Source of the DNA: Lysobacterales bacterium 66-474
Lineage (GTDB): Bacteria > Pseudomonadota > Gammaproteobacteria > Xanthomonadales > Rhodanobacteraceae
Reading direction: 5' to 3'
DNA: 64,000 nucleotides
Assembly: GCA_001899805.1 (NCBI GenBank)
Contig: MKWP01000016.1
Span: 124,001-188,000 of the forward strand
Numbering within the stretch: position 1 is the first letter of the stretch; each line of letters starts with the position of its first letter. The notes beneath the pieces were generated by a model, which did no database searches, was not told where the DNA came from, and saw nothing but the letters and a program-made list of their open reading frames with translations. This document shows positions 44,168 through 60,190 of the stretch, one piece after another. The position numbers and the translations under genes are program-made.

Positions 44168-44196
44168 TTGCAAGTCGGTTAATTTGCCGCTAATGT
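44168..44196 (+). promoter_or_regulatory. Putative promoter of the first TonB-dependent receptor
   Basis: Within a markedly AT-rich stretch (about 44120-44220) of the 423-bp gap upstream of the receptor, TTGCAA (44168-44173) and TAATGT (44191-44196) are 17 bp apart. The -10 ends 142 bases before the ATG. The second receptor gene has a similar pair at almost the same distance (143 bases). The rest of the 43916-44338 gap shows no gene. Confidence 0.4.
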
Positions 44197-44338: not shown

Positions 44339-47170
44339 ATGAATCGCAAGCTTCTGACGTCAGCCATCTGCGCCAGCCTGCTCGTTGCGGGCACGGCGTA
44401 CGCACAGGACAACGCAGCGCCTCAACAGCCGCAGGACCAGTCCGCGGCCACGCAGTCGAACAACTCGAATTCACAGCAGGACCAGGAAAGGAAGGCGAAG
44501 AAACTTCAGACCATCACGGTTACCGGTTCGCTGATTCCGCAATCGCAGGTCGAAACCGCCAATCCAGTTATTACGATTACGGCACAGGATCTGCAAAAGC
44601 AGGGCTTCAAGGACGTATACGATGCCCTGCGTTCACTGCCCGCCGCCAACGGCGCGGTGCTGGACAACCAGTTCACCAATGGCTTCACCCCCGGCGCGAG
44701 CACGATCAGCCTGTTGGGTCTGGATCCCAGCTTCACACTGGTGTTGATGAATGGTCGACCCTTGGCAGACTACCCGCTGCTGTATAACGCCAACAGCAAC
44801 TTCGTCGATTTGAATACGATCCCGATGGCATTGGTGGATCGCATCGAAATCGTCCCCGGTAACCAATCGGCGATCTACGGCTCGGCCGCGATCGCGGGCG
44901 TCGTCAACATCATCCTCAAGCAGCGGATGGAAGGTGTTGCTCTGGATTACCGTGCTGGTGCTTACACCGACGGTGGCGGACAGCAAATGCGCCTGCAGAT
45001 CAGCGGAGGCCATAGCATTGGCAAGCTCAGCTTGATGGGCGCTGTCGAACTGAATCAACAGCATCCGATTTACTACTCCCAGCGCAGCTACACCGACAGC
45101 TACGAAGACAATCCGGATCCGAGAGGCCGGATCGCCGAACGCGACCGTCTCGCCATCAATCCGTTCACGGGCCGCTACTGGGGTACGCCTGACGGTGCCG
45201 CGACCTGCGCGCCGATCAGCAACCTGTTCAACGGCACCTTGCATTACGCCACTCGTCCGGGCATTGGTTCCTACTGCGGCACCCTCACTCCTGGCACCGA
45301 ACTGGGCACGATCCTCAATTCGAACAAACAGGCCACGCTTTTCGGCGAAGCGACGTATGACCTCAATGACAACACGCAGGTGTACGGTGACCTGCTGTAC
45401 AACTTCACCAAGGTCAACTACCTGACGGGCGGTGTCACTTGGTGGGGTACCGGTACGGGCGTGCCGCTTTATGTTTACGATTGGGACGCGGGGCAGCTGC
45501 AACGGCTGCAGCACATCCTTGCGCCGGAAGAAACCAACAACACGAACGCTGCGACCAACCTGGAAAACAGCTGGGTGTTCGATGCGGGCATCAAGGGCAG
45601 CTTTGGCAATTCCAACTGGAACTACGATGCCTATTATCACCGTTCGCAGTACGAAACCCGTGCACGTCGGTTGCGCTTCCTGACCGACAAGGTCAACGCT
45701 TTCTTCCTCGGCCCCCAAGACGGCACAGATCCGTATGGCTATGGCTATCCGGCCTTTCACATCGTGCAGAACGGCAAGTTCTGGGGTGCAGTCACCCCGG
45801 CCGAATATCTGAGCATCACCGATTACATCCGCAGTCACTCCAAGACCTATACGCAGCAGGGGACCTTCCAGATCACCAACACCGATCTGTTCAGTCTTCC
45901 CGCGGGTTCTGTCGGCTTTGCCGGCGTGCTGACGCTCGGTAACCAGCTGTGGGACAACCCTGTCGATCCACGTGTAACCGCTGGACAATTTTGGGGCAGT
46001 GGTGGCACCAGCGGTCATGGTACGCGCGACTTCCAAGCGGCGGCCGTTGAGTTCAGCGTGCCGATCTTCAAGATGTTGACCGCGGACCTGTCCGGCCGTT
46101 ACGACCGTTATTCGCCGGACGGCGGCACCTCCGACAGCAAGTTCACGTACAAGGCCGGCTTGGAATTCCGTCCGTTTGACACCCTGCTGCTGCGCGCGAA
46201 CTACGCCACCGCATTCCGCGCGCCGGACATGGGCTACGTGTTCTCCACTGGCAGCAAGTTCTTCACTTCCGTATTTGACTGGTACAACTGCCGCAGGCTG
46301 TACGGCAACAATCCGGCAAACTGCGATCCGCCCTATGACAGCGTGCAGATCCAGGGCTTCCAGAGCGGCAACAAGGACCTGAGATACATCACTGCCAAGT
46401 CCTGGGGCTATGGTGCTGTGTGGTCGCCGATCAACAACCTGAGCCTGAAGGCCGACTATTACCACATCAAGATCGCCGACGAGGTCAATTCCTACAGCTT
46501 GAGCACGATCCTGCAGCGCGAGGCCGACTGCCGGCTCGGCGTGACTGTGCAGGGCAATCCGGTGGACATCAATTCTTCCGTTTGCCAACAGTTCCTGTCG
46601 CAAGTAAGCCGTAATCCCCTGAGCGCACCGGTCGGTGGCGGCAACCTGAATTCGGTGACCACGGTGCCGATCAACATCTCTCGGGAATCCGTCTCGGGCA
46701 TCACGGCGTCGGGTCAATATCGTTGGGATGCGGGGCGCTTCGGCGATTTCACCTTCAACGCCGACTATGCGGTGCAGACATCGCATCTGAAGCAAACCTT
46801 CCCGGGCGATGATCCGCTGGATTTGCTCCGCACCAACTCGTACGGCAACCAGTTCAAGACGATCGGCGCCCTTGCGGTAACCTGGGACATCGGCAAATGG
46901 AGCACGACCGCTCAGTACCAACGTTACGGCAAGACCTTCAACTTCGCCGGCAACGGCACCGTAGGCCCATGGATGAAGTACAACGCCACGGTGCAATACC
47001 ATGTAACGCCCGACATCACCGCAACCCTGATCGGGAACAACATTTTCAATGCGCGTCCCCCGAAGGACAAGACCTTCACGGCGTATCCGTACTACGACTA
47101 CTTCAGCTACAACGCTTACGGTCGTCTGGTAATGCTTGAGTTGAACGTCAAGTTCGGCGGCGCCAAGTGA
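44339..47170 (+). CDS. TonB-dependent outer-membrane receptor
   Basis: A 943-residue receptor. Signal peptide MNRKLLTSAICASLLVAGTAYAQ, a Gln/Asn/Ser-rich linker, then a TonB box-like LQTITVTGSLI. The plug domain runs to about residue 200 (NPVITITAQDLQKQGFKDV, IEIVPGNQSAIYGSAAIAGVV), followed by the barrel. It lacks an N-terminal STN signalling domain. The end is aromatic-rich and closes LNVKFGGAK, without the usual terminal Phe. Substrate unknown. It converges with two TPR-sulfotransferase genes and is strongly similar throughout to the receptor at 50880, so the two arose by duplication. GGAG precedes the ATG. Base composition is visibly less GC-rich than in flanking housekeeping genes. Confidence 0.92.
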   Translation: MNRKLLTSAICASLLVAGTAYAQDNAAPQQPQDQSAATQSNNSNSQQDQERKAKKLQTITVTGSLIPQSQVETANPVITITAQDLQKQGFKDVYDALRSLPAANGAVLDNQFTNGFTPGASTISLLGLDPSFTLVLMNGRPLADYPLLYNANSNFVDLNTIPMALVDRIEIVPGNQSAIYGSAAIAGVVNIILKQRMEGVALDYRAGAYTDGGGQQMRLQISGGHSIGKLSLMGAVELNQQHPIYYSQRSYTDSYEDNPDPRGRIAERDRLAINPFTGRYWGTPDGAATCAPISNLFNGTLHYATRPGIGSYCGTLTPGTELGTILNSNKQATLFGEATYDLNDNTQVYGDLLYNFTKVNYLTGGVTWWGTGTGVPLYVYDWDAGQLQRLQHILAPEETNNTNAATNLENSWVFDAGIKGSFGNSNWNYDAYYHRSQYETRARRLRFLTDKVNAFFLGPQDGTDPYGYGYPAFHIVQNGKFWGAVTPAEYLSITDYIRSHSKTYTQQGTFQITNTDLFSLPAGSVGFAGVLTLGNQLWDNPVDPRVTAGQFWGSGGTSGHGTRDFQAAAVEFSVPIFKMLTADLSGRYDRYSPDGGTSDSKFTYKAGLEFRPFDTLLLRANYATAFRAPDMGYVFSTGSKFFTSVFDWYNCRRLYGNNPANCDPPYDSVQIQGFQSGNKDLRYITAKSWGYGAVWSPINNLSLKADYYHIKIADEVNSYSLSTILQREADCRLGVTVQGNPVDINSSVCQQFLSQVSRNPLSAPVGGGNLNSVTTVPINISRESVSGITASGQYRWDAGRFGDFTFNADYAVQTSHLKQTFPGDDPLDLLRTNSYGNQFKTIGALAVTWDIGKWSTTAQYQRYGKTFNFAGNGTVGPWMKYNATVQYHVTPDITATLIGNNIFNARPPKDKTFTAYPYYDYFSYNAYGRLVMLELNVKFGGAK

Positions 47171-47220
47171 TCAGGCAAAATCACGGCGGCAACTGACGTC
47201 GTAATCTGCATCTGATATCC

Positions 47221-47250
47221 AAGGGCCGACCCTAGGGTCGGCCCTTTTTT
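47221..47250. terminator. Terminator after the first receptor
   Basis: Perfect arms AAGGGCCGACCC and GGGTCGGCCCTT with a two-base loop, followed by TTTTTT on the plus strand. It separates the receptor from the convergent sulfotransferase genes and may work on both strands. Confidence 0.95.
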
Positions 47251-47295
47251 GCGTGCCGAAAGGCGGTCTGTCGCTCAAGCAACGACGGATGGAAA

Positions 47296-48852
47296 TCATT
47301 TGCTCAACGCGTTGCGCAACGAGGTCAATTGTTCAGCATAGGGTCGCCATTCGCCAAACGCGCGGGCATGTATGGGCTGGCGGACTTGCGCCATGCTCAG
47401 GGTTGCGACTGTCGCCGTATTGCGCTTGAGGTCCGTGCACCCCGCTTCGAAATCGAGCCTGCAGAACGCGAAAACTTCGCGAGCCACGCCTTCCGGCTCA
47501 CGCACAAGCCGGGCATAGTCCACATCCAGGATCGCTCCTGGAAAAGCCTCGTGCCAGCGGCCCATCAGACGCTTGTACTGACGGTGGTGTTGCGCGAGGG
47601 CATCAAGATCGTAGCTGTAGGGATAGGCATCGCCAAAAAGCGCCCGATAATTGGAAAAGCACACATCCATCGGATCTCGAACAACATTCACGATTGGCGC
47701 GCGGGGGAACGCCCGGTGGATGAGACCAGCGACCATCCAGTTACGAGGCAGTTTGTCGATGAAAAACGGCCTGCCGCGCGCACGCCACTGCGTTTGCTCG
47801 AGGTAAAGGCGACCGAGCTCCCTCCAGTCCACGCGCCCCAAGCGATCGACAATCACCTCGTCGGGAACCACCGTGGCGCAATGGTCGGTTGCCCATATCA
47901 GCAAGCGGGCGAAATCGCCCAATTCACCCGCTGAGCGCACCTGCGAGTGGTTGCCGAGGATCCTGTCCAGAACTGTTGTTCCCGAGCGTGGCAGCCCGAT
48001 CACGAAGATCGGCTGCGGACCCGCCAAGCTCAATTCGACCGCGTCCGTGGGTTTCCCGAGATCAACCTGTGCAAGCGAACCCAGGATGGCAGCCTCACGC
48101 GCGGGATCGTGGGCGAGGCGCCGGTACATCAGGCGATTCGCACGCGTCAGTGCTTCCCATGCCTCGGTGTGGCGGCCGATATCTTCCAACTCCTTGTACC
48201 GCGCGAATTCCAGGCCGGCCTCGTTCTCGCTGCCGGGCTCGGCGCGCGTCAAGGCCTGTTCGATTCGCGGCAAGTGATTGCGCTCAGGCGTTTGCGTCCG
48301 CATCCGGGACAACTGCAGGAAAGCACGGCCCAATGGCGGATCGGCCAAGATGCAGCTTTCCAGGTCAGCCTCGGCTTCGTCCAGGCGCCCATTGAACGAC
48401 AGTTGCACGGCGCGGTAGAACTGGAAATCCGGTCCGGACGCTCCAAACCGGCCCGCCCTTTCAATCAGCGCCAACGACGTTTCGTGTTCGCCGAGCATTT
48501 GACGTTGTGCGGCTGATCGCATCAGGACGGTAGGCGACTCGCTCTTGCCGATGCAAGGATGATCAAGACAGCGCCGCGCCTCGACAATTTCCCCGACCTG
48601 CATCAGGGCCGCAATCACGCTTCCTATGGCATCTGCCTCGTCTGGCAAGTCGCGTGCCGCAGCCAGCGCGTGGCGGGTGGCGGCACGAATGTGGCCTTCT
48701 GCGATTTCAAGGCCGCCCATCACAAGGTGGGCGCGAACATCATCCGGATTACGACCGAGGATGGACTCCAGAAGCGCTCGTGCAGGTGTGGGCTGGTCCA
48801 TGGCGATGTAACGCTCGACGCGTTCCCAACGCTTGTCCTGGTTCTCATTCAT
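47296..48852 (-). CDS. TPR-containing sulfotransferase
   Basis: A 518-residue cytoplasmic protein with no signal peptide. The N-terminal 270 residues form TPR-like helical repeats (AHLVMGGLEIAEGHIRAATR, FYRAVQLSFNGRLDEAEADL). The C-terminal half is a sulfotransferase: the PAPS 5'-phosphate loop IFVIGLPRSGTTVLDRIL at about residues 282-299 and the 3'-phosphate region VVRDPMDVCFSNYRALFGD at about 390-408. It should move sulfate from PAPS to a hydroxyl. TPR-linked forms resemble bacterial protein or peptide sulfotransferases, but the acceptor is unknown. Its ATG overlaps the stop of the next sulfotransferase gene upstream (ATGA). Confidence 0.92.
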   Translation of the reverse strand: MNENQDKRWERVERYIAMDQPTPARALLESILGRNPDDVRAHLVMGGLEIAEGHIRAATRHALAAARDLPDEADAIGSVIAALMQVGEIVEARRCLDHPCIGKSESPTVLMRSAAQRQMLGEHETSLALIERAGRFGASGPDFQFYRAVQLSFNGRLDEAEADLESCILADPPLGRAFLQLSRMRTQTPERNHLPRIEQALTRAEPGSENEAGLEFARYKELEDIGRHTEAWEALTRANRLMYRRLAHDPAREAAILGSLAQVDLGKPTDAVELSLAGPQPIFVIGLPRSGTTVLDRILGNHSQVRSAGELGDFARLLIWATDHCATVVPDEVIVDRLGRVDWRELGRLYLEQTQWRARGRPFFIDKLPRNWMVAGLIHRAFPRAPIVNVVRDPMDVCFSNYRALFGDAYPYSYDLDALAQHHRQYKRLMGRWHEAFPGAILDVDYARLVREPEGVAREVFAFCRLDFEAGCTDLKRNTATVATLSMAQVRQPIHARAFGEWRPYAEQLTSLRNALSK

Positions 48853-50429
48853 GTTCGAACGGAGGTCCTTGCGGATTCATGCATCTTGGAAATCGAGGTG
48901 AACAACTCGACGAGATGCTCGCCGTAGGGTCGCCAAGCTCCTATTGATCGCGCATGCAGTGGTTCATGGACCTGCGCTGCACTCAAGGTCGAAACAGGAC
49001 GATCGTTAAGAGTAATGTCCACACACGCCGGCTCCCACTCCAGACCGCAAAAATCAAGCACTCCGCGCAGCGTATTCTCCGTCTCCGATACCAGATCGGC
49101 ATAGGAGACATCGAGGATTGCACCCGGTACAAGCTCGTGCCAACGCGACACCAAACGCCGATAGTCGTGGTAGTGCTGCGCCAGCGAATCAAGCTGATAG
49201 CTCCATGTATACGCATCGCCAAACATGGCGCGATAGTTGCTGAAACATACATCCATGGGATCGCGCACCATGTGCAGTATCCGGGACCCCGGCAGGGCAG
49301 CGTGCAGCCATCCAGCCACCATCCAGTTAACGGGTTGCTTGTCAATGAAGTAGCGTTTTCCGCTGGCGCGCCACTGTGTCTGTGCGAGATATCGCTTTCC
49401 GAGTTCGACCCAATCCAGTTTTCCAATGCGATCCGCAAACACCTGATCATGGAAATGTCGGTGATTGGCCGCCCAGCGGAGTTGCTGTCCGAAACTCGCA
49501 AGTTCTCCTGCCGAAACGACTTCCGCATGGTTGCCAAGCAAGCGTTCGAGAACGGTGGTTCCCGAGCGCGGCAGTCCGATCACGAAGATCGGCTGCGGAC
49601 CGTGGGGGACCGACTCCGCAGACTGTGACGCAAATTCTGCACTGATGTCGTACAAACTTCGCAGGGCCGCGTGTTGCCGTGCCGCGTCCTGGCCTGACTG
49701 CGCGCTCATGATGGCATTCGCGCGCGCCAGTGCTTCCCAGGCACCCGCGTACTGTTGCAAATCCTCGAGCACCTTGTAGCGTGCAAATTCAAGGGCAGCG
49801 TGGTCCCGGGTTCCAGAAGCAACCGCCGCCAGCCCTGTTTCCAATCGGCCAAGGTGATTGTCTTGCAGCGTTTGTCGGCGCAACCTGACCAGCGGCAAGG
49901 CGGCACGGCCATACGACGGCGCCAGATCGAGGCTCGTTTCGTATCCGGCTTCGGCCTCCCTCAGGCGTCCAAGAAACGCCAGTTGCTGGGCCCGGTAGAA
50001 ATGCAGTTTTGCATCACGAGGAGTACCCGGCAATGCCTTATCCAGCAGTGCCAGGGAGTCACCATGTTCTCCGAGCTCCTGGCGCAGATCCGCGCACCGG
50101 ATCAGCGTTTCATGGGACTCGATTGCGTCAAGTGAAAGGCGTTCAATGCACTCGTGTGCCGCGGCAACTTCACCCGTCAGCAGGAGAACTTCCGTAACGT
50201 CGAGAATCCCTTCCGGTTCATCGGCAAGCCGCGCGGCTTCCAGCGCCTCGCTCGCTGCCGTTCTAACTTCGTCATTCCGCCACGCGATTTGCGCCGCAAG
50301 GAGATGCGTTCTTGCATGGGTTGGCATGCGAGCTCGCATCGAATCCAGCGTCGCCAGTGCCGGAGCAAGATCTCCTTGTGCCAAATATCGTTGTGCGCGT
50401 GCCCAGAGGCGGCCCATTGGGTCGGTCAT
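48849..50429 (-). CDS. TPR-containing sulfotransferase
   Basis: A 526-residue protein of the same build as its downstream neighbour. TPR repeats occur in the first half (LHFYRAQQLAFLGRLREAEA), then the PAPS loop IFVIGLPRSGTTVLERLLGN, the linker FIDKQPVNWMVAGWLH and MVRDPMDVCFSNYRAMFGD. It ends with the family's C-terminal signature TLSAAQVHEPLHARSIGAWR. Start: ATG 50429 lies one base after the stop of an upstream sulfotransferase remnant, repeating the coupling used in this cluster; a TTG at 50453 is the alternative. No signal peptide. Similarity to the other three intact copies is high around both PAPS motifs. Confidence 0.9.
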   Translation of the reverse strand: MTDPMGRLWARAQRYLAQGDLAPALATLDSMRARMPTHARTHLLAAQIAWRNDEVRTAASEALEAARLADEPEGILDVTEVLLLTGEVAAAHECIERLSLDAIESHETLIRCADLRQELGEHGDSLALLDKALPGTPRDAKLHFYRAQQLAFLGRLREAEAGYETSLDLAPSYGRAALPLVRLRRQTLQDNHLGRLETGLAAVASGTRDHAALEFARYKVLEDLQQYAGAWEALARANAIMSAQSGQDAARQHAALRSLYDISAEFASQSAESVPHGPQPIFVIGLPRSGTTVLERLLGNHAEVVSAGELASFGQQLRWAANHRHFHDQVFADRIGKLDWVELGKRYLAQTQWRASGKRYFIDKQPVNWMVAGWLHAALPGSRILHMVRDPMDVCFSNYRAMFGDAYTWSYQLDSLAQHYHDYRRLVSRWHELVPGAILDVSYADLVSETENTLRGVLDFCGLEWEPACVDITLNDRPVSTLSAAQVHEPLHARSIGAWRPYGEHLVELFTSISKMHESARTSVRT

Positions 50430-50430
50430 G

Positions 50431-50583
50431 TCATGACAAATCGCAAATTCCAACTTTCCTGCACGTAAATTTCGAAAACCGATGGGTCAATTGTGTTGCA
50501 AGCCACAACTCGTCCCGCAGCCGATTGTGCAGGGATGAGTGTACCTGCGCGATGCTCAACAAGGTCCGGTCATGGACCGTGTC
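50431..50583 (-). pseudogene. C-terminal remnant of a fifth TPR-sulfotransferase gene
   Basis: A minus-strand frame ending at 50431 encodes TLLSIAQVHSSLHNRLRDEL and then ATQLTHRFSK. This aligns with the last 35 residues of the intact sulfotransferases (TLSMAQVRQPIHARAFGEWR, then AEQLTSLRNALSK). No PAPS loop or TPR part is found upstream; that DNA is now the promoter region of the second receptor. The stop lies one base before the next sulfotransferase ATG, so the remnant is the end of a former operon partner. Similarity is moderate but covers the whole tail in the right order and place. Confidence 0.72.
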
Positions 50584-50707
50584 GCGTCCCCGGTCTTGTA
50601 ACCCGCGTCCAGCGCGATCCGTGGGGCGGCTTCGATCACTGGTCATCCGGCGGATACTCAGCAGGCACTGAGATCACCGGCAAATTTGCCCCCACCCCAT
50701 CCCCCTC

Positions 50708-50798
50708 TTGCATTCAAGTTAAATTGACGTTAGTTTCGCCGGCGTGCTGCTACCGGGGACAGTGCAGGACGACCACTGAGACGTCATCGCCTCAGTGG
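50708..50798 (+). promoter_or_regulatory. Putative promoter and 5' hairpin of the second receptor
   Basis: TTGCAT (50708-50713) and TAGTTT (50731-50736) are 17 bp apart, the -10 ending 143 bases before the ATG at 50880, nearly the same as for the first receptor. TTGACG at 50724 is an alternative -35. Downstream, CCACTGAG (50773-50780) and CTCAGTGG (50791-50798) form a perfect 8-bp inverted repeat that could be an operator or a 5' UTR hairpin. No gene other than the sulfotransferase remnant lies in 50430-50879. Confidence 0.4.
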
Positions 50799-50879
50799 TT
50801 GAGTGTACCTGCTCGTGTCCCGAACATTGCTGCGAAGCGGCGCCGGGGCACTGCAGCCACCCTCTTGGGGAGCCCTGTA

Positions 50880-53768
50880 ATGAATCGCAAGTTGTTGGCC
50901 ACAGCCATCTGCGCCAGCCTGTTCGCGACTGGCACCGCTTATGCGCAAACCGCGTCGTCCGACTCGCAGGCGCAACAGAATCAACCACAGCAGCCCAGTC
51001 CAACCACGACAGCATCACAGTCGCAGAAAAAGAAGGAGAAAACTCTCCAGACCATCACCGTCACCGGTTCGCTGATTCCGCAGTCGCAGATTGAAACTGC
51101 CAACCCGGTGATCACGATTACCGCGCAAGACATGCAGAAGAAGGGGTTCGTCAACATTTACGACGCGTTGCGTTCGCAACCGCTTTCCACCGGCTCGGTA
51201 CAGGACAACCAGACCACGGCCGGTTTCACGCCAGGCGCACAAACTATCAGTTTGCTGGGCCTCCCGCCCGATTTCACGCTGTTCCTGTTGAACGGTCGTC
51301 CGATGGCGGACTTCCCTCTGCTGTACAACGGCTCCGCCAACTTCGTAGACCTGTCCAACATCCCGATGTCGATGGTGGACCACATTGATATCCTGCCAGG
51401 CAACCAGTCGTCCATCTACGGCTCCTCGGCGATCGCCGGCGTAGTCAACGTGGTGCTGAAGAAGAAGATGGATGGTTACAACCTTGAATACAGGGCGGGC
51501 GGATACACTGACGGCGGCGGTCAGCAGCAACGTCTGAATTTCTCGGGTGGTTACAACACCGACAAACTGAGCGTGCTGTACTCGGTGCAGGTGGATGACC
51601 AGCATCCTTTGTTCGGGTACAACCGCGACCTGACCTCCTCAACCCTCAGCAATCCGAACCCGGCCGCACGTTATGCGACCCCGGCGGTGATCCACTGGCA
51701 AGGCTTGACCCAGAGGACTCACTACATCGATCCTGATCTCGATGGCGGCTGCGGCGCACTCTCTGGTTTGTTCGGCAGTACGGTAACCCGCCAGGCGCGC
51801 AACAGCCGTGGCCCGGGCGGCGTTGGTCCGGGCTACTTCTGCGGCAGCTATACCGAACTGGGCTACTCAACCCTGCTCAACAGGAAGCGGGATGCCTCGG
51901 GTTACGTCAATCTGACTTACCAAGTCAACGACAATACGCAGTTGTTTGGCAGTCTGTTGTACGACTTCCAGAAGCAGCGGTTCTATGCCGGACCCAACTA
52001 CAACTGGTGGGCTCCCGCCAACGGCAACTACATCTGGAACACGAACACCAACACGTTCGATTTCTACGAGAAACTGTTTTCGCCGGAAGAAATCGGCGGC
52101 CCGTTGGCCAACGCCGACAACCAGATCGCCAGGATGTACAACGGTGACATCGGTATCCGTGGAAACTTCGGCAATTCCGACTGGAACTATGAAGCCTATT
52201 TTTCGCGCGCCGACTACAAGGTCGCCGACAAACAGTTGAGACCGCTGGCAGGACCGGTCGACACCTTCTTCGAGAAGATGTTCCTGGGTCCGCAACTTGG
52301 TCTGGACCCCAACTACAGCTACTACCCGGCCTACGCGCCCAACGACGCGGCCTTCCTGAAGCCAATCACCCCGGCCGAATACCGCAGCTTCTCGGATTAC
52401 ATCCGCAGCACTTCGCACACCTACACCCAGCTCTTCAACGCCCAGATCACCAATTCCTCGCTGTTCCACCTGCCGGCAGGCGATGTGGGCTTCGCGGCAG
52501 TTCTGCAAGGTGGCGATCAGATATGGGACAACCCCACCGATCCGCGCGTGGTCGCGGGCGATTTCTGGGGCCTGACCGGCACCTCAGGCTACGGCAAACG
52601 CAACAACTACGCCGCTGCGGTCGAGTTCCGGGTACCGATCTTCAGCATGCTGAGTGCGGACATATCGGCCCGCTACGACCACTACAAGAATGTCAACGCC
52701 GGGTCGGACAGCAAGCCCACCTACAAGATCGGGCTGGAGTTCCGTCCGTTCGATACTTTGCTGCTGCGTGCCAACTACGCGACCGCATTCCGCGCCCCAG
52801 ACATGGCCAGCGTGTTCCAGGGACCCAGCGGGTTCTACAATTTCGCCACGGATTACTACAAGTGCGAAAAGTACGAGCCTACGACGGCAATCCAGGACTG
52901 CACCTGGGACAACGTGCAGTACAAGGGCACCCAGGAAGGCAACGCAGCCCTGAAGTCGATCACCGCGAAATCCTGGGGGTACGGTGCCGTGTGGTCACCC
53001 ACCGACAAGTTGACCGTCAAGGCCGACTATTACGACGTCAACGTCAAGAACGAAATCATGCCCCTGAGTGTCGATGGCCTGTTGCGTACTGAAGCAGCCT
53101 GCCGACTGGGTCAACTGGACATCAATTCGGGGTCCTGCGTGGATGCGCTGACCCGTATCCAGCGTACGCCGGAATCCACCAACCAGAGTCAGTCACAGAA
53201 CATCTCGGGGATCACGGTCGGCCCGATCAACATCGCCACGGAGCGTGTCAAGGGCATCGTCGCCGGGCTGGATTACAAACTGGACGCGGCCCGCTTCGGT
53301 GACTTTACCTTCGGCGCGCAATACAACGTCACGTTGAACCATTACCTCCAACAGTACCCGACATCCCCCAACATCGACCTGCTGCGTCATCCGGAGTGGT
53401 CCTGGGCCAACGCCACGGCCGCCGAGTTCAAGACCATCTTCACCGGCAGCGTGACCTGGGACATCGGCAAATGGAGTGCCACCTTGGCTGGCACGCGATA
53501 CGGCGCCAGCGCGAATTACGCTGCACAGACTCAAGGCTATGGCACCCCGAATGCCGGAACCGTCGCGCCATGGATGGTCTACAACGGCAGCGTGACGTAT
53601 CACGTGACTCCGGATATCACCACGCAATTGATCGTCAACAACATCAAGGACTCGATGCCGCCACGCGATACCACGTGGGTTGGCTGGCCGTACTACAACC
53701 AGTACAACTACAATCCTTACGGACGCATCCTCTGGCTGGATCTCAACATCCACTTCGGAGGCAAGTAA
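50880..53768 (+). CDS. TonB-dependent outer-membrane receptor
   Basis: A 962-residue receptor. It starts MNRKLLATAICASLFATGTAYAQ, nearly the same signal as the receptor at 44339, then LQTITVTGSLIPQSQIETAN. The plug (TITAQDMQKKGFVNIYDALR, DILPGNQSSIYGSSAIAGVV) and a long barrel follow, ending LDLNIHFGGK. There is no STN domain. Blocks such as LEFRPFDTLLLRANYATAFR are identical between the two receptors. ATG 50880 has GGGGAG upstream; the frame is open further up, but the shared signal peptide fixes the start. It converges with a second pair of TPR-sulfotransferase genes. Ligand unknown. Confidence 0.92.
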   Translation: MNRKLLATAICASLFATGTAYAQTASSDSQAQQNQPQQPSPTTTASQSQKKKEKTLQTITVTGSLIPQSQIETANPVITITAQDMQKKGFVNIYDALRSQPLSTGSVQDNQTTAGFTPGAQTISLLGLPPDFTLFLLNGRPMADFPLLYNGSANFVDLSNIPMSMVDHIDILPGNQSSIYGSSAIAGVVNVVLKKKMDGYNLEYRAGGYTDGGGQQQRLNFSGGYNTDKLSVLYSVQVDDQHPLFGYNRDLTSSTLSNPNPAARYATPAVIHWQGLTQRTHYIDPDLDGGCGALSGLFGSTVTRQARNSRGPGGVGPGYFCGSYTELGYSTLLNRKRDASGYVNLTYQVNDNTQLFGSLLYDFQKQRFYAGPNYNWWAPANGNYIWNTNTNTFDFYEKLFSPEEIGGPLANADNQIARMYNGDIGIRGNFGNSDWNYEAYFSRADYKVADKQLRPLAGPVDTFFEKMFLGPQLGLDPNYSYYPAYAPNDAAFLKPITPAEYRSFSDYIRSTSHTYTQLFNAQITNSSLFHLPAGDVGFAAVLQGGDQIWDNPTDPRVVAGDFWGLTGTSGYGKRNNYAAAVEFRVPIFSMLSADISARYDHYKNVNAGSDSKPTYKIGLEFRPFDTLLLRANYATAFRAPDMASVFQGPSGFYNFATDYYKCEKYEPTTAIQDCTWDNVQYKGTQEGNAALKSITAKSWGYGAVWSPTDKLTVKADYYDVNVKNEIMPLSVDGLLRTEAACRLGQLDINSGSCVDALTRIQRTPESTNQSQSQNISGITVGPINIATERVKGIVAGLDYKLDAARFGDFTFGAQYNVTLNHYLQQYPTSPNIDLLRHPEWSWANATAAEFKTIFTGSVTWDIGKWSATLAGTRYGASANYAAQTQGYGTPNAGTVAPWMVYNGSVTYHVTPDITTQLIVNNIKDSMPPRDTTWVGWPYYNQYNYNPYGRILWLDLNIHFGGK

Positions 53769-53794
53769 CAGGCCGTCCACCAATGTTGCCTTTC

Positions 53795-53822
53795 AAGGGC
53801 CGGCTCTTGCCGGCCCTTTTTT
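53795..53822. terminator. Terminator after the second receptor
   Basis: Arms AAGGGCCGGC and GCCGGCCCTT with a TCTT loop and a run of six T. It lies between the receptor and the convergent sulfotransferase genes, as in the first module. Confidence 0.95.
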
Positions 53823-53942
53823 CTTTGAAAACTTCGCACCGGTCAGAACGGCAACCCCGGACGACCTGTCGAATTGAAATTGTGGTTGTAAGCGGTCCAC
53901 ACAGCGGCACGCAGTCACGCTGCACCTATTTCGTGGGGCCGT

Positions 53943-55532
53943 CTAAACCATGAGCCGCAGCGGTTCCAACTGCTTTTCGTACCGCCGCCACTCACCTACC
54001 GCGCGGCGATGGATCTTCTCGCGTACCTGCGGGCTGCTGAGCGTGGAAACGGGATTGCGATTCCGCGTAATGTCGCCGCAGTCCGCCTCATGCGGCAGAC
54101 CGCAGAACTTCAGTACCCGCGCCGTCATGGCCTCCGGATCGTCAACCAGCGCGGCATAGTCCACGTCCATGACCACGCCGGGCAGCGCGCGCCGCCAATG
54201 CGTCATCACTTTCTCGAACTCGGCGTAATGCGCAGCAAGCGCCTTGATGTCGTAGCTGTAGGCATAGGAATCACCAAAATAAGCCTTCCAGTTGGAATAG
54301 CAAATGTCCATCGGATCACGTCGCAAGGCAAGGATGCGCGCCATCGGCAAGGCCCGATGGATGAGCCCGGCGAGCATGAAGTTGGCCGGCAGCTTGTCGA
54401 CGTAGTAGGGCTTGCCGCGTGCGCGCCAACGGCTTTGCAGCAAGTAACGCTCGCCAAGCAACCGGTAATCGAACGCACGCAGGCGATTGATCAACTTGGC
54501 GTCGACGACCCCCGTGCCGGGATCCACGCCATACATGTCAGCAGTCCAACGCAACTGATTTGGGAAATCCGGCAGCTCGCCCGGGCTTGCGACCATGGAG
54601 TGATTGCCGAGGATGCGATCCAGGAGGGTGGTGCCAGAGCGGGGCATTCCGATGATGAAGATCGGTTTGGGCCCATCGTCTTCGGCTACACCGTCGACAA
54701 TGTCGAAAAAGCGTGCGTCACACAGCTCGATGATCGCGTTGCACCGTCTGTGTTCGGCCGCACTGTCATGAGGCAGACGCGCGGACATGATGGCGTTGCC
54801 GTGTTCCAAAGCATCCCACGCTTCATCGCATCGGTCCAGATCGTCCAATTCCTTGAAGCGCGCGAATTCAAGGGCTGCCTGATGCTCGCTGCCGGACTCG
54901 ACTCTCCCAAGCTGAGCGGCGATCGAAGCCAAGTGATTGCGTTGCGGGGTCTGCCTGCGCATGCGTGCCAGCGCCAGCCAGGCGCGGCCATGGCTGGGCC
55001 CCATGCACAGACAGGCTTCCAATTCGCCCTCGGCTTCGCGGGTGCGTCCGTTGAACTGCAGTTGCAATGCGCGGTAATAACGAAAATCAGGAGTGTTGAA
55101 GCCGATTTCGAGGGCGCGGTCCATCAACCCCAACGCGCGGCGATGCTGGCCAAGCAACTGATGCAATTGCGCAAACATGGCCAGCAATTCACCAGAGTCT
55201 GAACTCACGATTGCCGGGTACTCAAGACAATCGTGCATGACCCGGGTTTCCCCCAACTTATGCAGACAAAACGCCAGCTTGTGCAATTCTGCCAAGTCGT
55301 CAAAAGCTACGTTGGCCGCTGCGACCAATTGTGCACAGGCGTCACGCAGGCGCTCCAGTTTCAGGCACACGCTGGAGAGTAGTAGACGTGCCTGCACATT
55401 GCCTGGAGCATGCGACAACAGCGCCTCCAATGCTGCGCGCGCGGCGGGGAACTGTTCCGCAATGATGTAACGCTGCGCACGTTCCCATTGCCGTTCGATC
55501 GTTCGTGCCGAAACGCTGTCAGCAATGTTCAC
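53943..55532 (-). CDS. TPR-containing sulfotransferase
   Basis: A 529-residue member of the same family. TPR half with FRYYRALQLQFNGRTREAEGE; PAPS loop IFIIGMPRSGTTLLDRILGN; YYVDKLPANFMLAGLIHRAL; LRRDPMDICYSNWKAYFGD; and a tail TLSSPQVREKIHRRAVGEWR. The start is taken as GTG 55532, which overlaps the upstream sulfotransferase stop as GTGA; the open frame reaches further up but inside that gene. No signal peptide. Within the 3'-phosphate region it reads LRRDPMD where the other three have VRDPMD. Confidence 0.9.
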   Translation of the reverse strand: MNIADSVSARTIERQWERAQRYIIAEQFPAARAALEALLSHAPGNVQARLLLSSVCLKLERLRDACAQLVAAANVAFDDLAELHKLAFCLHKLGETRVMHDCLEYPAIVSSDSGELLAMFAQLHQLLGQHRRALGLMDRALEIGFNTPDFRYYRALQLQFNGRTREAEGELEACLCMGPSHGRAWLALARMRRQTPQRNHLASIAAQLGRVESGSEHQAALEFARFKELDDLDRCDEAWDALEHGNAIMSARLPHDSAAEHRRCNAIIELCDARFFDIVDGVAEDDGPKPIFIIGMPRSGTTLLDRILGNHSMVASPGELPDFPNQLRWTADMYGVDPGTGVVDAKLINRLRAFDYRLLGERYLLQSRWRARGKPYYVDKLPANFMLAGLIHRALPMARILALRRDPMDICYSNWKAYFGDSYAYSYDIKALAAHYAEFEKVMTHWRRALPGVVMDVDYAALVDDPEAMTARVLKFCGLPHEADCGDITRNRNPVSTLSSPQVREKIHRRAVGEWRRYEKQLEPLRLMV

Positions 55533-57106
55533 GCTGCCCCCAACATCTCTCGCAATGACGACAATTGCGCTGCATGTCGCCGCCACTCGCCGAACGAACG
55601 ATCATGCACGGACGACCGCACCTGCGCCGCGCTCAAGGTCGCGCTGGGCGCGGTATTGCGTTTCAAATCCGTGCAACCGGGTTCCCACTCCAACCCGCAG
55701 AATGCGAACACCTTGCGCAAGGTGGCTTCGGGTTCGCGCACCAGGTCGGCGTAGTCCACGTCGAGGATCGCGCCCGGCATGATCTTGTGCCAGTGCATCA
55801 TCACGCGACGATAGTCGCTGAAATACTCCGCCAGCGCGCCAAGATCATAGCTGTAGGCACAGGCATCGCCGAAGTATGCGCGCCAGTTGGAAAAACAGGT
55901 ATCCATGGGATCGCGCACCAGGTTCAGGATCGGCGCCTGCGGCAACGCCGCGTGGATCGCCGCCGCCAGCACCCAGTTGGGCGGCTGCTTGTCGATGAAG
56001 AAAGCCTTGCCGGGCGCACGCCACTGCGTTTGCGCAAGATAGCGCCGGCCCAGTTCAGGATAGTCGATGCCACCAAGACGCGACACCAGTACGTCGCTTT
56101 GCGCGTTGCGGGTATCGGCCATCCAGTGCAACTGCGCGCCGAAATCCACCAGCTCGCCGGCGTTCGCCACCCGCGAATGGTTGCCGAGCATCCGCTCCAG
56201 CAAGGTGGTGCCTGAGCGGGCGACGCCAACGATGAATATGGGCATCGATCCGGTGTGCGTTTCGCCCTCGCTGCGCACAAGCGCCGCATCCCACGCGGAC
56301 AGATAGCGTTCGATCCACGCGTGGTGTCGGGCGACCTGGTCGCACAACCTTGCATGCATCAGCGCATTGCCGCGCGCCAATGCCTGCCAGGCTTCCTCGT
56401 GGCGATCGAGATCCTCCAGCGTCTTGTAGCGCGCGAACTCGAAGGCAGCCTGATCGCTCGTGCCCGGCGCGGCCATGCGCGCGCCCGAATCCAGCGCAGC
56501 CAGATGATTGCATTCAGCGGTTTGCCGGCGCAGGCGCACCAGCGGCACCGCGATGCGGCCTCGCGCCGGCGCTTCGGCAAGGCTCGCGGCGAGCTCGGCT
56601 TCGGCTTCCTCGATACGCCCGTTGAACAGCAACGCTTCGCCGCGGCGGAACCGCGAGACGGCGCTGGCGTGCCCCAGTGATTTTGCTTTGTCCAGCAACG
56701 CCAGCGTCTCGGCATGTTGCCCCAATCGCTTGCGCAACACCGCCATGCGCATCAGCAACAGCGGATTCCCGCAATCCGCCATCACCGGCCGGTCGATGCA
56801 TTCGCGGGCCGCGACGGTCTCGCCCACCTCCTGCAGCACGGTCGCCACCGTGCAGAGCGCTTCCGGATCGTCGGGCGCCGCCCGCGCCGCTTCCAGCGCG
56901 TGGCGGGTGCCGTCGCGGACGCGATCCTCGCGCCATGCGAGCTGCGCCGCCAACAGAGGCGCGTACACGTTGCCGTGGGTTTCCCGCGCACGCATCGAGG
57001 CAAGGACCTCGCGCGCGGCGGCTATGCGCCCCCGCAACAGGCACGACTGGGCTTGCTGCCACAGCGGGTCGGAGGCGAAGCTCCCGCTTGCGGCGACGGC
57101 GGCCAT
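55529..57106 (-). CDS. TPR-containing sulfotransferase linked to glyS
   Basis: A 525-residue family member with TPR half (RFRRGEALLFNGRIEEAEAE). The PAPS loop is IFIVGVARSGTTLLERMLGN, which has Ala where the others have Pro before RSGTT. Then come FIDKQPPNWVLAAAIHAALP, LVRDPMDTCFSNWRAYFGD and the tail TLSAAQVRSSVHDRSFGEWR. Its ATG shares a base with the glyS stop (TAATG), so it is translated with the glyQ-glyS transcript. Codon use is more GC-rich than in the other three copies, like the housekeeping genes. Acceptor unknown. Confidence 0.92.
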   Translation of the reverse strand: MAAVAASGSFASDPLWQQAQSCLLRGRIAAAREVLASMRARETHGNVYAPLLAAQLAWREDRVRDGTRHALEAARAAPDDPEALCTVATVLQEVGETVAARECIDRPVMADCGNPLLLMRMAVLRKRLGQHAETLALLDKAKSLGHASAVSRFRRGEALLFNGRIEEAEAELAASLAEAPARGRIAVPLVRLRRQTAECNHLAALDSGARMAAPGTSDQAAFEFARYKTLEDLDRHEEAWQALARGNALMHARLCDQVARHHAWIERYLSAWDAALVRSEGETHTGSMPIFIVGVARSGTTLLERMLGNHSRVANAGELVDFGAQLHWMADTRNAQSDVLVSRLGGIDYPELGRRYLAQTQWRAPGKAFFIDKQPPNWVLAAAIHAALPQAPILNLVRDPMDTCFSNWRAYFGDACAYSYDLGALAEYFSDYRRVMMHWHKIMPGAILDVDYADLVREPEATLRKVFAFCGLEWEPGCTDLKRNTAPSATLSAAQVRSSVHDRSFGEWRRHAAQLSSLREMLGAA

Positions 57107-59307
57107 TACAACAAGGCGATCTCGGCGATCACGTCGAAACGGGCCTTGACGCGCGCCAGCAACGCGATCCGGTTGCCGCGCAGGACCGTGTCGTCGACCA
57201 TCACCATCACGTCATCGAAGAACGCATCGATCGGCGCCTGCAATTGAGCGAGGCGCGCCAATGCGCCTTCGTAGTCGCGTGTTGCGGTATCCCCCGCGAG
57301 GCGCGCTGCGTTGTCCCTGCGGGCGTCGTCCAGCGCCTGCGCCAACGCCTGCTCGGCCGGTTCGCGCAGCAATGCCGCATCGAGTTCGCGTCGTGCGGCC
57401 GCATCCATGTCGACGCCTTGCTTGCGCAGGATGTTGGCGACGCGCTTGTTGGCGGCCGCGAGTTTTTCGGCTTCGGGTTGTTTTGCGAACGCGGCAACCG
57501 CGCGCAGGCGGCGATCGAAATCGACGAGGCTGTTCGGACGGACTGCGGCGACGGCGTCGAACTGCTGCGCCGTGAATCCCTTTTCCGCGTAGTAACCCCG
57601 CAGGCGGTCGAGGATGAAGTCGCGCAGGGCCGCAAACACTTCGCCTCCAGGCAAATCGACGTGCGCGGACTGGACCGCGGCTACCTTGACGCCCTTCGCT
57701 TCGGCCTCGGCGGCAGATGCGCCCTGGCGCGTGACAGTCGTCGCGACCAGTGCGTCTTGGACTTGCGACAACGCCTCCTTCAACAATCTGTCCAGATCGA
57801 GATCGAGGCCGCCTTCGACCAGCGTCCGCGCCAGGCCCAGTGCGGCACGCCGCAACGCGAAGGGGTCCTTGTTGCCGGTGGGTTTCAACCCAACCGCGAA
57901 AATGCCGGCCAGCGTGTCCAGCTTGTCGGCCAGCGACAGGCATTGCGCCAGCGCACCTTCGGCGATGCCGTCACCGGCGTTGCGTGGACGGTAGAACTCG
58001 TCCAGCGCATTCGCCACTTCGGCGGGCTCACCCTGCGCGGCAGCGTAATGGCGCCCCATCACGCCCTGCAGTTCGGGAAACTCGCCGACCATGCGTGTCA
58101 GCAAATCGCAGCGCGACAGCCCGGCTGCGTGCGCGACCTGCGCCGCATCGACTTCGATGCCTTGCGCAAACAGCCGTTCGGCGATCGCACTGGCCAGCTC
58201 GGCCACGCGCACGGTCTTGTCCCACAAGCTGCCCAGGGCCTTCTGGTAAGTGACATCGCGCAACCCCTGCTGGTGCCGCGCCAGCGGCGTCTTCAGGTCT
58301 TCGTCGAAGAAGAATTTTGCATCGGCGAAACGCGGCCGGATCACGCGCTCGTAGCCGTGGCGGACCTGCGCAGGATCCTTCGACTCGATGTTGGCGATGC
58401 CGATGAAGTGTTCGCCGAGCCTGCCGTCCGTGCCGAACACCGGCACGAATTTCTGGTTGGCGCGCATGGTGGTGACCAGCGCTTCGTGCGGCACCGACAG
58501 GTATTCGCGATCGAAGGTGCAGGCGATCGCGACCGGCCACTCGTTGAGGTTGGCGAGTTCGTCCAGCAATGCATCGTCGAGGCGCGGCTCGCAATCGGCG
58601 GGCGCAACGCGCGCGACTTCGTCGCGGATGCGCTGGCGACGCTCGACCGGATCGGCCAGCACTTTCGCCGCACGCAGGGATTCGGCGTAACCGTCGGCGT
58701 CCACGAGGTGCACCGGCGTCGGGTGCATGAAGCGGTGCCCGCGCGATTGGCGGCCACCCTTCACGCCGAACAGCTCGCCCGCGATCACCTGGTCGCCGTG
58801 CAATGCCACCAACCAGTGCACCGGGCGCACGAACGCGAAATCATGGTCGCCCCAGCGCATCGGTTTGGCGATTGGCAATGCCGCGGCGGCTTCGCGCACG
58901 ATCTCCGGAACCAGTTCGGCGGTGCTGCGGCCGGGCGTGACGCTGCGGTGCACGAAGCGCTCGCCCCTGGCATCCGTCGCACGTTCGAGCTGCGTCCAGT
59001 CGACACCGGCCTTGTTCGCGAAACCGGACAGTGCCTTGGTGGGTTGGCCATCCGCATCCAGCGCGATGTTGAGGTACGGGCCGAGGCTCTCGCCGCGTTG
59101 TTCGGGCTGGGTGAACGCCACGCCCGGCACCAAGACCGCGAGGCGCCGCGGTGTCGCGAAGGTCTGCGCGTGCCCGACGTCGCCCATGATGCCGCGTTTG
59201 GACAAGCCGTCGCACACCCCTTGCGCGAAGGCCCGCGCCAGATCGTCCACCGCGTGGATGGGCAATTCCTCGCATCCGATTTCGATCAGCAACGAACGCT
59301 CAGCCAT
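57106..59307 (-). CDS. glyS: Glycine-tRNA ligase beta subunit
   Basis: A 733-residue beta subunit that binds and positions tRNA(Gly) in the tetrameric enzyme. It begins [20 protein letters not shown]; later blocks include [28 protein letters not shown] and [20 protein letters not shown] with the HD-like and anticodon-binding regions. ATG 59307 has GGAGG six bases upstream and overlaps glyQ by 8 bp. It is followed without gap by a sulfotransferase gene. Length is slightly above that of E. coli GlyS (689). Confidence 0.95.
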
Positions 59308-60190
59308 GCGCGGCCTCCGCGTTCGCGTTTTCGCGAGGCGCGACCCATTCCTTGGCAACGGCGTGCGCCAGCGCGCGCACCCGCAGGATGTAACGCTGGC
59401 GTTCGGTCACCGAAATCGCGCGGCGTGCGTCCAGCAGGTTGAACGCGTGGCTGGCCTTCATCACCTGTTCGTAGGCTGGCAACGGCAGGTGCAATGCGAC
59501 GAGCTTGTTGGCTTCGGCTTCGCAGGCGTCGAAGCGGTGGAACAATTCCCTGGTGTCCGCGTGCTCGAAGTTGTAGGCGCTCTGCTCGACTTCGTTGCGG
59601 TGGAACACGTCGCCGTAGGTCACGACACCATGTGGCGCGGTGGTCCAGACCAGGTCGAACACGCTGTTGACGTTCTGCAGATACATCGCGAGCCGTTCGA
59701 GGCCATAGGTAAGTTCGGCGGTGACGGGCTTGCATTCGAGGCCGCCGGCCTGCTGGAAATAGGTGAACTGGGTGACCTCCATCCCGTTCAACCACACCTC
59801 CCAGCCAAGCCCCCATGCGCCGAGTGTCGGCGATTCCCAGTTGTCCTCGACCAGCCGCAGGTCGTGCACCAATGGATCGATGCCGAGCGCGCGCAGCGAG
59901 CCGAAGTAGCGTTCCAGCACATCGTCGGGATTCGGCTTCAGCACCACTTGATACTGGTAGTACTGCTGCAGGCGGTTGGGATTTTCGCCGTAGCGGCCGT
60001 CGGTCGGACGCCGGCACGGCTGCACGTAGGCCGCAGACCACGGATCGGGACCGAGCGCGCGCAGGAACGTCGCGGGATGGAACGTGCCGGCGCCGACTTC
60101 CAGGTCCAGCGGCTGCAGCAGCACGCAACCCTGCTCCGCCCAGTAGCGGTTCAGGGTCCGGATCACGTCCTGGAAAGTCGGTCCTGCCAA
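59300..60190 (-). CDS. glyQ: Glycine-tRNA ligase alpha subunit
   Basis: A 296-residue catalytic alpha subunit. Almost the whole family pattern is present: [57 protein letters not shown] and [18 protein letters not shown]. No ATG or GTG lies near the expected start. A TTG at 60190, five codons before TFQDVI, gives the usual length and has GGGA five bases upstream. A TATACT box on the minus strand (60227-60222) would place transcription about 25 bases ahead. It forms an operon with glyS and the following sulfotransferase genes. Confidence 0.94.

Follow-up and report, generated by a model that had tools for sequence, protein, structure and literature searches.

A window of 64,000 nucleotides from Lysobacterales bacterium 66-474 (GenBank assembly GCA_001899805.1, contig MKWP01000016.1, positions 124,001 to 188,000) carries at 44339-57106 two genes for TonB-dependent receptors (TBDRs) and four for sulfotransferases (STs) with tetratricopeptide repeats (TPR), in the order TBDR1 (+), ST1/ST2 (-), TBDR2 (+), ST3/ST4 (-), followed by glyS. 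We propose, at a probability of roughly one half, that the TPR-sulfotransferases work in the cytoplasm as protein-tyrosine sulfotransferases, each dedicated to the receptor encoded next to it. Loop tyrosines tend to be missing from receptors where the enzyme is missing, which, at the level of sequence, suggests that bacteria tag their own receptors. The proposal is built on a computed pairing of both genes with a preference for the receptor 3' end, on matching trees, on a fold and active site like those of tyrosylprotein sulfotransferases (TPSTs), and on enzyme-tracking tyrosines in two unrelated receptor classes.

Occurrence and Geometry of the Pairing

In the genome of origin, 24 Sulfotransfer_3 matches were read as 23 genes, 16 of which (one a short remnant) are located in seven clusters, each with a TBDR beside an ST; the other seven are, by coordinates, not directly beside a TBDR. 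From 350 pattern matches, 222 relatives were obtained, and the best 80 of these 222 yielded 78 loci chosen for likeness to the window. A TBDR is situated within 1.5 kb of the ST cluster in 44 and within 500 bp in 42 of the 78, and reading of the loci adds the TBDR-flanked clusters L097, L055, and L062 (L and a number denote a sampled locus or receptor, G and a number a genome). TBDR-ST distances in these loci fall 48 times into 0-1 kb, never into 1-3 kb, 15 times into 3-4 kb, and 7 times beyond.

Because the 78 loci were picked for window likeness, ST loci were also sampled across the family (at most two ST clusters per genome, already seen ones skipped; 40 of 57 selected loci). Sixteen of these 40 clusters are strictly TBDR-adjacent, two are one gene off, four have a TBDR farther away, and 18 have none in the stretch. 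The pairing exceeds chance, a comparison that a first-pass annotation of the window had asked for: 19/58 ST genes have a TBDR neighbour compared with 5/172 control genes located at least three genes from any ST in the same sampled family-wide loci (Fisher 5e-9). Nor is it confined to the family, since 9 of 20 hand-picked strong ST matches in other families of the class are strictly TBDR-adjacent, all nine of them in 4 of the 9 genomes. The two genes do not form a closed system, given the 18 ST loci without a TBDR and the presence of an ST in only 10/60 window-type TBDR regions of the family. As window-type TBDRs often occur alone, the link belongs to certain receptor lineages, which permits comparison. 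Genomes carrying such enzymes account for 32/40 and 34/37 of those examined, the 37 having been picked, except for one, for a related receptor. Our open reading frame (ORF) caller chose some antisense ORFs, and labels rest on profile matches to six-frame ORFs; since at least one receptor (L030:5795-8920) goes undetected by PF00593 alone, the counts of TBDR neighbours are probably low.

Geometry was analysed for 100 TBDR-ST pairs with a gap below 700 bp, a non-random set gathered by ST or TBDR likeness. The ST is located behind the 3' end of the receptor in 84 pairs (43 same strand, 41 convergent) and at the 5' end in 16 (binomial 3e-12); in the window-type class, 27/31 pairs are convergent. 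For 96 distinct pairs, with near-identical sequences dropped before this and the other alignments, the FecA-like TBDR class 1 occurs only with ST class 5 (8/8), TBDR class 4 mostly with ST class 1 (12/21), the window-type TBDR class 5 with ST classes 3 and 4 (29/31), and the Oar-like TBDR class 3 with ST classes 2 and 3 (30/31). On the ST tree, 12 changes of TBDR class are counted, compared with 43 or more in 200 shuffles. Receptor and enzyme trees match (Mantel rho 0.89 for the 31 window-type pairs, 0.22 over all 96; permutation p 0.0005 in both cases), in agreement with what the first-pass annotation had expected of a real pairing, and rho amounts to 0.53 for class 3, 0.46 for class 4, and 0.89 for class 5. 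Shared inheritance of the linked block contributes to this match and alone gives such matches too.

Fold and Active Site of the Sulfotransferases

The model of ST1 (47296..48852, - strand, 518 aa; mean predicted local distance difference test score (pLDDT) 94.6) consists of a TPR-like helical half and a sulfotransferase half. In a structure search with this model the top seven rows by Z are all TPST (19.2-19.5), the next reaches 15.9, and heparan 3-O-sulfotransferases show the same fold at a lower Z of 13.1. The 5'-phosphosulfate-binding (5'-PSB) loop reads PRSGTT at residues 288-293 of ST1 and ARSGTT in ST4; Arg392 and Ser400 form the 3'-PSB part. Among 40 ST1 relatives, Arg289 and Arg392 are invariant and Ser400 occurs in at least 90%. 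Glu310, situated 21 residues past the loop Arg289, is likewise invariant and aligns with a Glu of tick TPST; Arg78 and Glu99 of TPST2, which we take to be the loop Arg and the catalytic Glu, are also 21 apart. By model and alignment the window STs possess a TPST-type fold and active-site residues, and tyrosine sulfation is their predicted activity.

Metazoan TPST1/2 have the fold nearest to ST1 and matching active-site residues, but they lack TPR and belong to the Golgi membrane, whereas the window STs appear to be soluble TPR fusions. O-GlcNAc transferase (OGT) and SPINDLY share the TPR superhelix preceding a protein-modifying domain; their catalytic domain differs, and the TPR likeness is partly generic to all TPR proteins. 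Bacterial tyrosine sulfation is described as sparse, and sulfotyrosine clusters have been reported, in PMC9372746, which gives RaxST/RaxX of Xanthomonas as the example and presents RaxST as a TPST-like, cytoplasmic enzyme acting before export. RaxST sulfates the RaxX peptide prior to secretion (PMC9372746, PMC6637879). This secreted substrate has 60 residues and a dedicated exporter, RaxA/RaxB, whereas the window STs have a TPR half and a TBDR as partner gene; the likeness to RaxST is by description. RaxA/RaxB exporter genes were not noticed among the window ORFs and the listed neighbour clusters, although no search was aimed at exporters, and the window gaps contain no conserved small ORF as a raxX-like precursor, raxX itself not having been searched for.

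The first-pass annotation had also called the pairing a possibly undescribed system. No description of it was found, which upholds the claim as far as a literature search that did not cover subscription journals or preprints can. According to PMC6637879, raxST homologues of other function occur in many phyla, none of them adjoining raxX. One passage in the raxST literature fits the present finding and slightly lowers its novelty.

Tyrosines of Loop L4 in Window-Type Receptors

In the model of TBDR1 (44339..47170, + strand, 943 aa; mean pLDDT 75.7), loop L4 comprises residues 449-493 between the strands 427-448 and 494-520, and strand parity would place it on the extracellular side. Model and conservation mark DPYGYGYP (residues 464-471; 45728..45751, + strand) as a candidate acceptor tyrosine cluster, to which DPNYSYYP in loop L4 of TBDR2 (residues 476-483; 52305..52328, + strand) corresponds. 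Tyrosine frequencies were determined for 93 receptors, 31 linked to an ST and 62 unlinked; 12 belong to genomes in which no ST matched at 1e-30 (ST-free). At columns 466/468/470 they amount to.61/.45/.84 in linked,.16/.03/.53 in unlinked, and.00/.00/.42 in ST-free receptors. Typical words are DPYYxxYPxF, TYYGYPxY, and DPYGYGYP in linked receptors, and DPDSGYPIF, TQNGVPVY, and similar ones in unlinked receptors. At least two loop tyrosines occur in 34/41 linked, 14/70 unlinked, and 1/12 ST-free receptors of an enlarged set (n=111); the motif of the single ST-free case, L209, is not evident by eye.

In the L108 subgroup, 17 linked receptors conserve 40 Tyr columns, of which the L4 column is lost most (12/14; median column 14%), and the two receptors that keep it, L106 and L107, have an ST at 3.9 and 3.5 kb. 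L205 and L300 read DPFF, the linked sister L100 reads DPNY, and L178 from an ST-free genome again reads DPFF.

A Second Receptor Class

The barrel of the Oar-like class 3 matches another Pfam family, OMP_b-brl_4, in two members. SLYGASYCRL-like words are kept in 14 linked close relatives, and 40 Tyr columns conserved in these 14 served for counting losses. In L308, whose genome G096 is ST-free at 1e-30, two of these tyrosines are gone: 757 is replaced by Asn and 761 by Ser. L260 (G079) and L309, which lies on a contig of G097 without an ST, lost three each, 757 and 761 included; the ST beside L260 (L260:8029-9784) is broken over several reading frames. L310 lost one conserved tyrosine, which is neither 757 nor 761. 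Tyr761 is present in 16/16 linked receptors of the clade. As G079 holds other STs, the enzymes would be receptor-specific if our reading holds.

In class 2, YYNYPRPM occurs in a loop of linked L026, L130, L274, and L275 and is not found in that form in linked L104 and L122; two unlinked relatives at 32% identity lack it, a sample that is too small. For classes 4 and 1, no enzyme-tracking tyrosine was seen in the Tyr-rich windows of linked members, which were inspected without unlinked controls. Tyr content is 5.3% in linked and 4.3% in unlinked receptors (p 0.012; 10 compared with 11 receptors of the own genome, one unlinked sequence wrongly trimmed to 652 aa).

Several observations weigh against a receptor-directed enzyme. 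Seven of the 41 linked window-type receptors have fewer than two loop tyrosines, the 14 unlinked ones mentioned above have two or more, and linked L191 reads DPLF, with Phe in place of the expected acceptor. The tyrosine columns came from scanning, not from prior prediction. In a Pagel-type likelihood test L4 ranks first of 92 Tyr windows (likelihood ratio 20.7), but near ties reach 20.3 and 18.4; it is also first of 67 Tyr columns, but four Trp/Phe columns rank higher among 134 aromatic columns (L306 scored as unknown in this per-column test). Due to the near ties and the higher Trp/Phe columns, the tree-based test is not specific. Independent pairs stand at 4.1 to 0.0 of 12, 3.5 to 0.5 of 14, 2.9 to 0.0 of 4, and 3.0 to 0.0 of 3, none of them significant, so that tree-corrected tests are weak. 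Two tyrosine markers failed as well: Tyr in acidic context does not distinguish the 10 linked from the 11 unlinked own-genome receptors (mean 1.2 compared with 1.4, p 1.0), and a Tyr regular expression proposed as general marker is present in 20/106 unlinked receptors and in 0/21 class-4 and 0/7 class-1 linked ones. In class 3, the derived loop is shared by L309 and L260, and recombination may therefore have joined two losses. Furthermore, L310 and L312 keep Tyr761 without an adjacent ST, for which a cognate ST elsewhere in the genome is a post hoc explanation: their genomes hold STs of the cognate kind (G107, 537 bits; G062, 520 bits), and G096, G097, and G079 contain no intact ST above 349 bits. 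With this threshold, set post hoc, Tyr761 occurs in 18/18 receptors with and 0/3 without a cognate ST in the genome (Fisher 7.5e-4; three separate branches), a count inflated by the near-identical pairs L089/L090 and L069/L316; L313 and L315 are duplicates.

Proposed Mechanism and Alternative Explanations

As substrate of the STs, the first-pass annotation had suggested a compound or peptide taken up or recognised by the receptor, or the receptor itself. Of the three, the receptor is the best-supported candidate, as its tyrosines track the enzyme. From the above we infer the receptor as substrate, tyrosine as the residue, the timing before export, and the purpose. After translation, the receptor chain would be captured unfolded by the OGT-like TPR half before Sec export, and the TPST-like half would transfer sulfate from 3'-phosphoadenosine 5'-phosphosulfate (PAPS) to tyrosines in a single extracellular loop; for TBDR1 and TBDR2 these are presumably the tyrosines of the L4 clusters. 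Sec export and insertion by BAM would follow, leaving the loop with its sulfotyrosines facing outward, where they may tune the binding of ligands, phages, or bacteriocins, in the sense of ligand choice or shielding. The wider proposal is that, in this family and some related ones, many TBDRs from several unrelated classes come with a TPR-TPST dedicated to each of them, which sulfates a cluster of extracellular-loop tyrosines before export, and that sulfotyrosine is thus a common surface modification of these Gram-negative bacteria; it is tentative and somewhat short of an even chance.

Unlikely, to our judgement, is that the STs sulfate a diffusible product, either a ribosomal peptide as in the case of RaxST or a siderophore-like compound, that is taken up or sensed through the receptor; the loop tyrosines would then be part of a binding pocket and decay once the product is lost. 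TBDRs are indeed uptake receptors, RaxX is sulfated before secretion (PMC9372746, PMC6637879), and joint loss of loop tyrosines and enzyme equally fits a lost ligand. A sulfated ligand, however, would more naturally need basic residues than tyrosines. A peptide precursor gene in the window gaps was also considered and rejected: 29 small ORFs gave four tblastn matches in 13 linked loci, all of them short or lying across a receptor end in another frame, which leaves no sign of a conserved precursor gene. Besides STs and TBDRs, no family adjoins STs in many contexts among the first 45 clusters (above 100 aa) listed for the 78 loci; other frequent ST neighbours, e.g., glyS, look like shared genomic sites.

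An action of the STs on envelope glycans or other proteins is still less probable; proximity to TBDRs would then reflect exchangeable surface-variation loci facing the same phages and bacteriocins. The frequent orphan STs (18/40), the pairing of one ST class with several TBDR classes, and the fold shared with heparan 3-O-sulfotransferases are in agreement with it, but TPST is clearly the nearest fold, the TPR half resembles that of a protein-modifying enzyme, ST and TBDR trees agree within classes, and glycan genes do not recur among the neighbour clusters listed. A real linkage without a common substrate, by co-regulation or hitchhiking, has the smallest probability. Block inheritance would suffice for the matching trees, and the convergent orientation of 27/31 window-type pairs, which therefore have no promoter in common, is counted in favour of it. 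Against this stand a pairing that reappears with five or more TBDR classes and, within the bacterial class, also outside the family, the location at the receptor 3' end in 84/100 pairs, and the tyrosine loss where the ST is broken.

Organization of the Window

The layout of receptor, terminator, and two STs, twice in a row, agrees in domains and strands with the first-pass description. Plug and beta-barrel domains exceed the Pfam cut-offs in TBDR1 (81.5 and 96.9 bits) and TBDR2 (50880..53768, + strand, 962 aa; 69.7 and 99.1 bits). Among PDB sequences, the receptors match CirA, the receptor for colicin I, and BtuB best; plug and barrel are common to all, the likeness in sequence extending over the plug. 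No NCBIfam model reaches its cut-off with the window receptors. Sulfotransfer_3 matches score 149-157 bits (cut-off 27) in ST1 (157.1), ST2 (48849..50429, - strand, 526 aa; 157.2), ST3 (53943..55532, - strand, GTG start; 149.4, scored with a longer start), and ST4 (55529..57106, - strand, 525 aa; 155.2). The TPR halves ascribed to all four are recovered by Pfam in ST1 (TPR_19, 26 bits) and ST3 (42.8 bits, longer start) and by predicted fold in ST1; ST4 stays below the cut-off and ST2 has no match. Start and stop overlap by 4 bp in both pairs, as annotated: the stop of ST2 overlaps the ST1 start in ATGA (48849-48852), and GTGA is found at 55529-55532.

A GC hairpin with a T run, read by eye without a scan, follows TBDR1 (47221..47251, + strand) and TBDR2 (53796..53823, + strand), consistent with the terminators proposed earlier. 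The similar putative promoters are likewise present as a string common to both receptors, TTAATTTGCCGCTAATGT (44179..44196, + strand), which begins 160 bases before the ATG of TBDR1, and TTAAATTGACGTTAGTTT (50719..50736, + strand), 161 bases before that of TBDR2. As a feature of the receptor class, this promoter is unsupported: the pattern built from the two strings (up to four mismatches) is rare upstream of 109 other receptors of the class (8/109 compared with 2/109 shuffled). Genes for extracytoplasmic function (ECF) sigma and anti-sigma factors, as in FecA-type signalling, are absent beside the window modules, whose neighbours are a YscW-domain lipoprotein, STs, and glyS.

The stop of glyS (57106-59358, - strand), which adjoins ST4, shares base 57106 with the ST4 ATG; ST4-ST3 may therefore be read, and the STs translated, together with this housekeeping synthetase gene. 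Since glyS recurs in 7/78 related loci, ST-adjacent in 6 of them, this is an old genomic site. In the same-genus genomes G111, G126, and G172, one TBDR is followed by two convergent STs.

The term duplicated module holds for the repeated layout, with 53% identity between TBDR1 and TBDR2 and 42-52% pairwise among the four STs, but five of the six genes are closer to other genomes than to the other module. These closer relatives are L173 for TBDR1 (62%), L057 for TBDR2 (73%), L049 and L045 for ST1 (58-59%), L057 for ST3 (64%), and L061 for ST4 (70%); ST2 is about equally near to ST4 (52%) and L269 (51%). Judged by these identities, the stretch 44339-57106 is therefore an old tandem or two modules brought together at one site.

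Other arrangements were noticed among the loci. L027:3145-19000 (own genome C9:104-120 kb) contains one TBDR and, after it, a run of six TPR-sulfotransferase matches. Two oxygenases, a TPR-2OG-Fe(II) enzyme (PF13759) and a small 2OG enzyme (PF13640), belong to the same cluster, where perhaps one substrate is both hydroxylated and sulfated. L032:9211-11070 (own genome C16:89-91 kb) encodes an aspartyl/asparaginyl beta-hydroxylase fused to a sulfotransferase domain, and the ST profile finds related fusions in other loci, L055 among them. Three groups of TPR-sulfotransferases have no TBDR in the flanks covered and apparently occupy shared genomic sites (L098, L099, L101, L113; L103, L116, L121; and L051, L054, L067). 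In L039:8562-12627, the gene after a TBDR, in the same orientation, encodes a 339-aa protein that has TPR only and lacks a sulfotransferase domain.

Implications

The receptor with a broken enzyme and the enzyme-free genomes make receptor sulfation directly testable. If our reading is true, a substrate would be assigned to a large unexplained set of bacterial TPR-sulfotransferases, and modified receptors would become predictable from sequence, which bears on the recognition of ligands, phages, and bacteriocins. Outer-membrane receptors would then routinely undergo tyrosine sulfation across a large group of bacteria associated with soil and plants.
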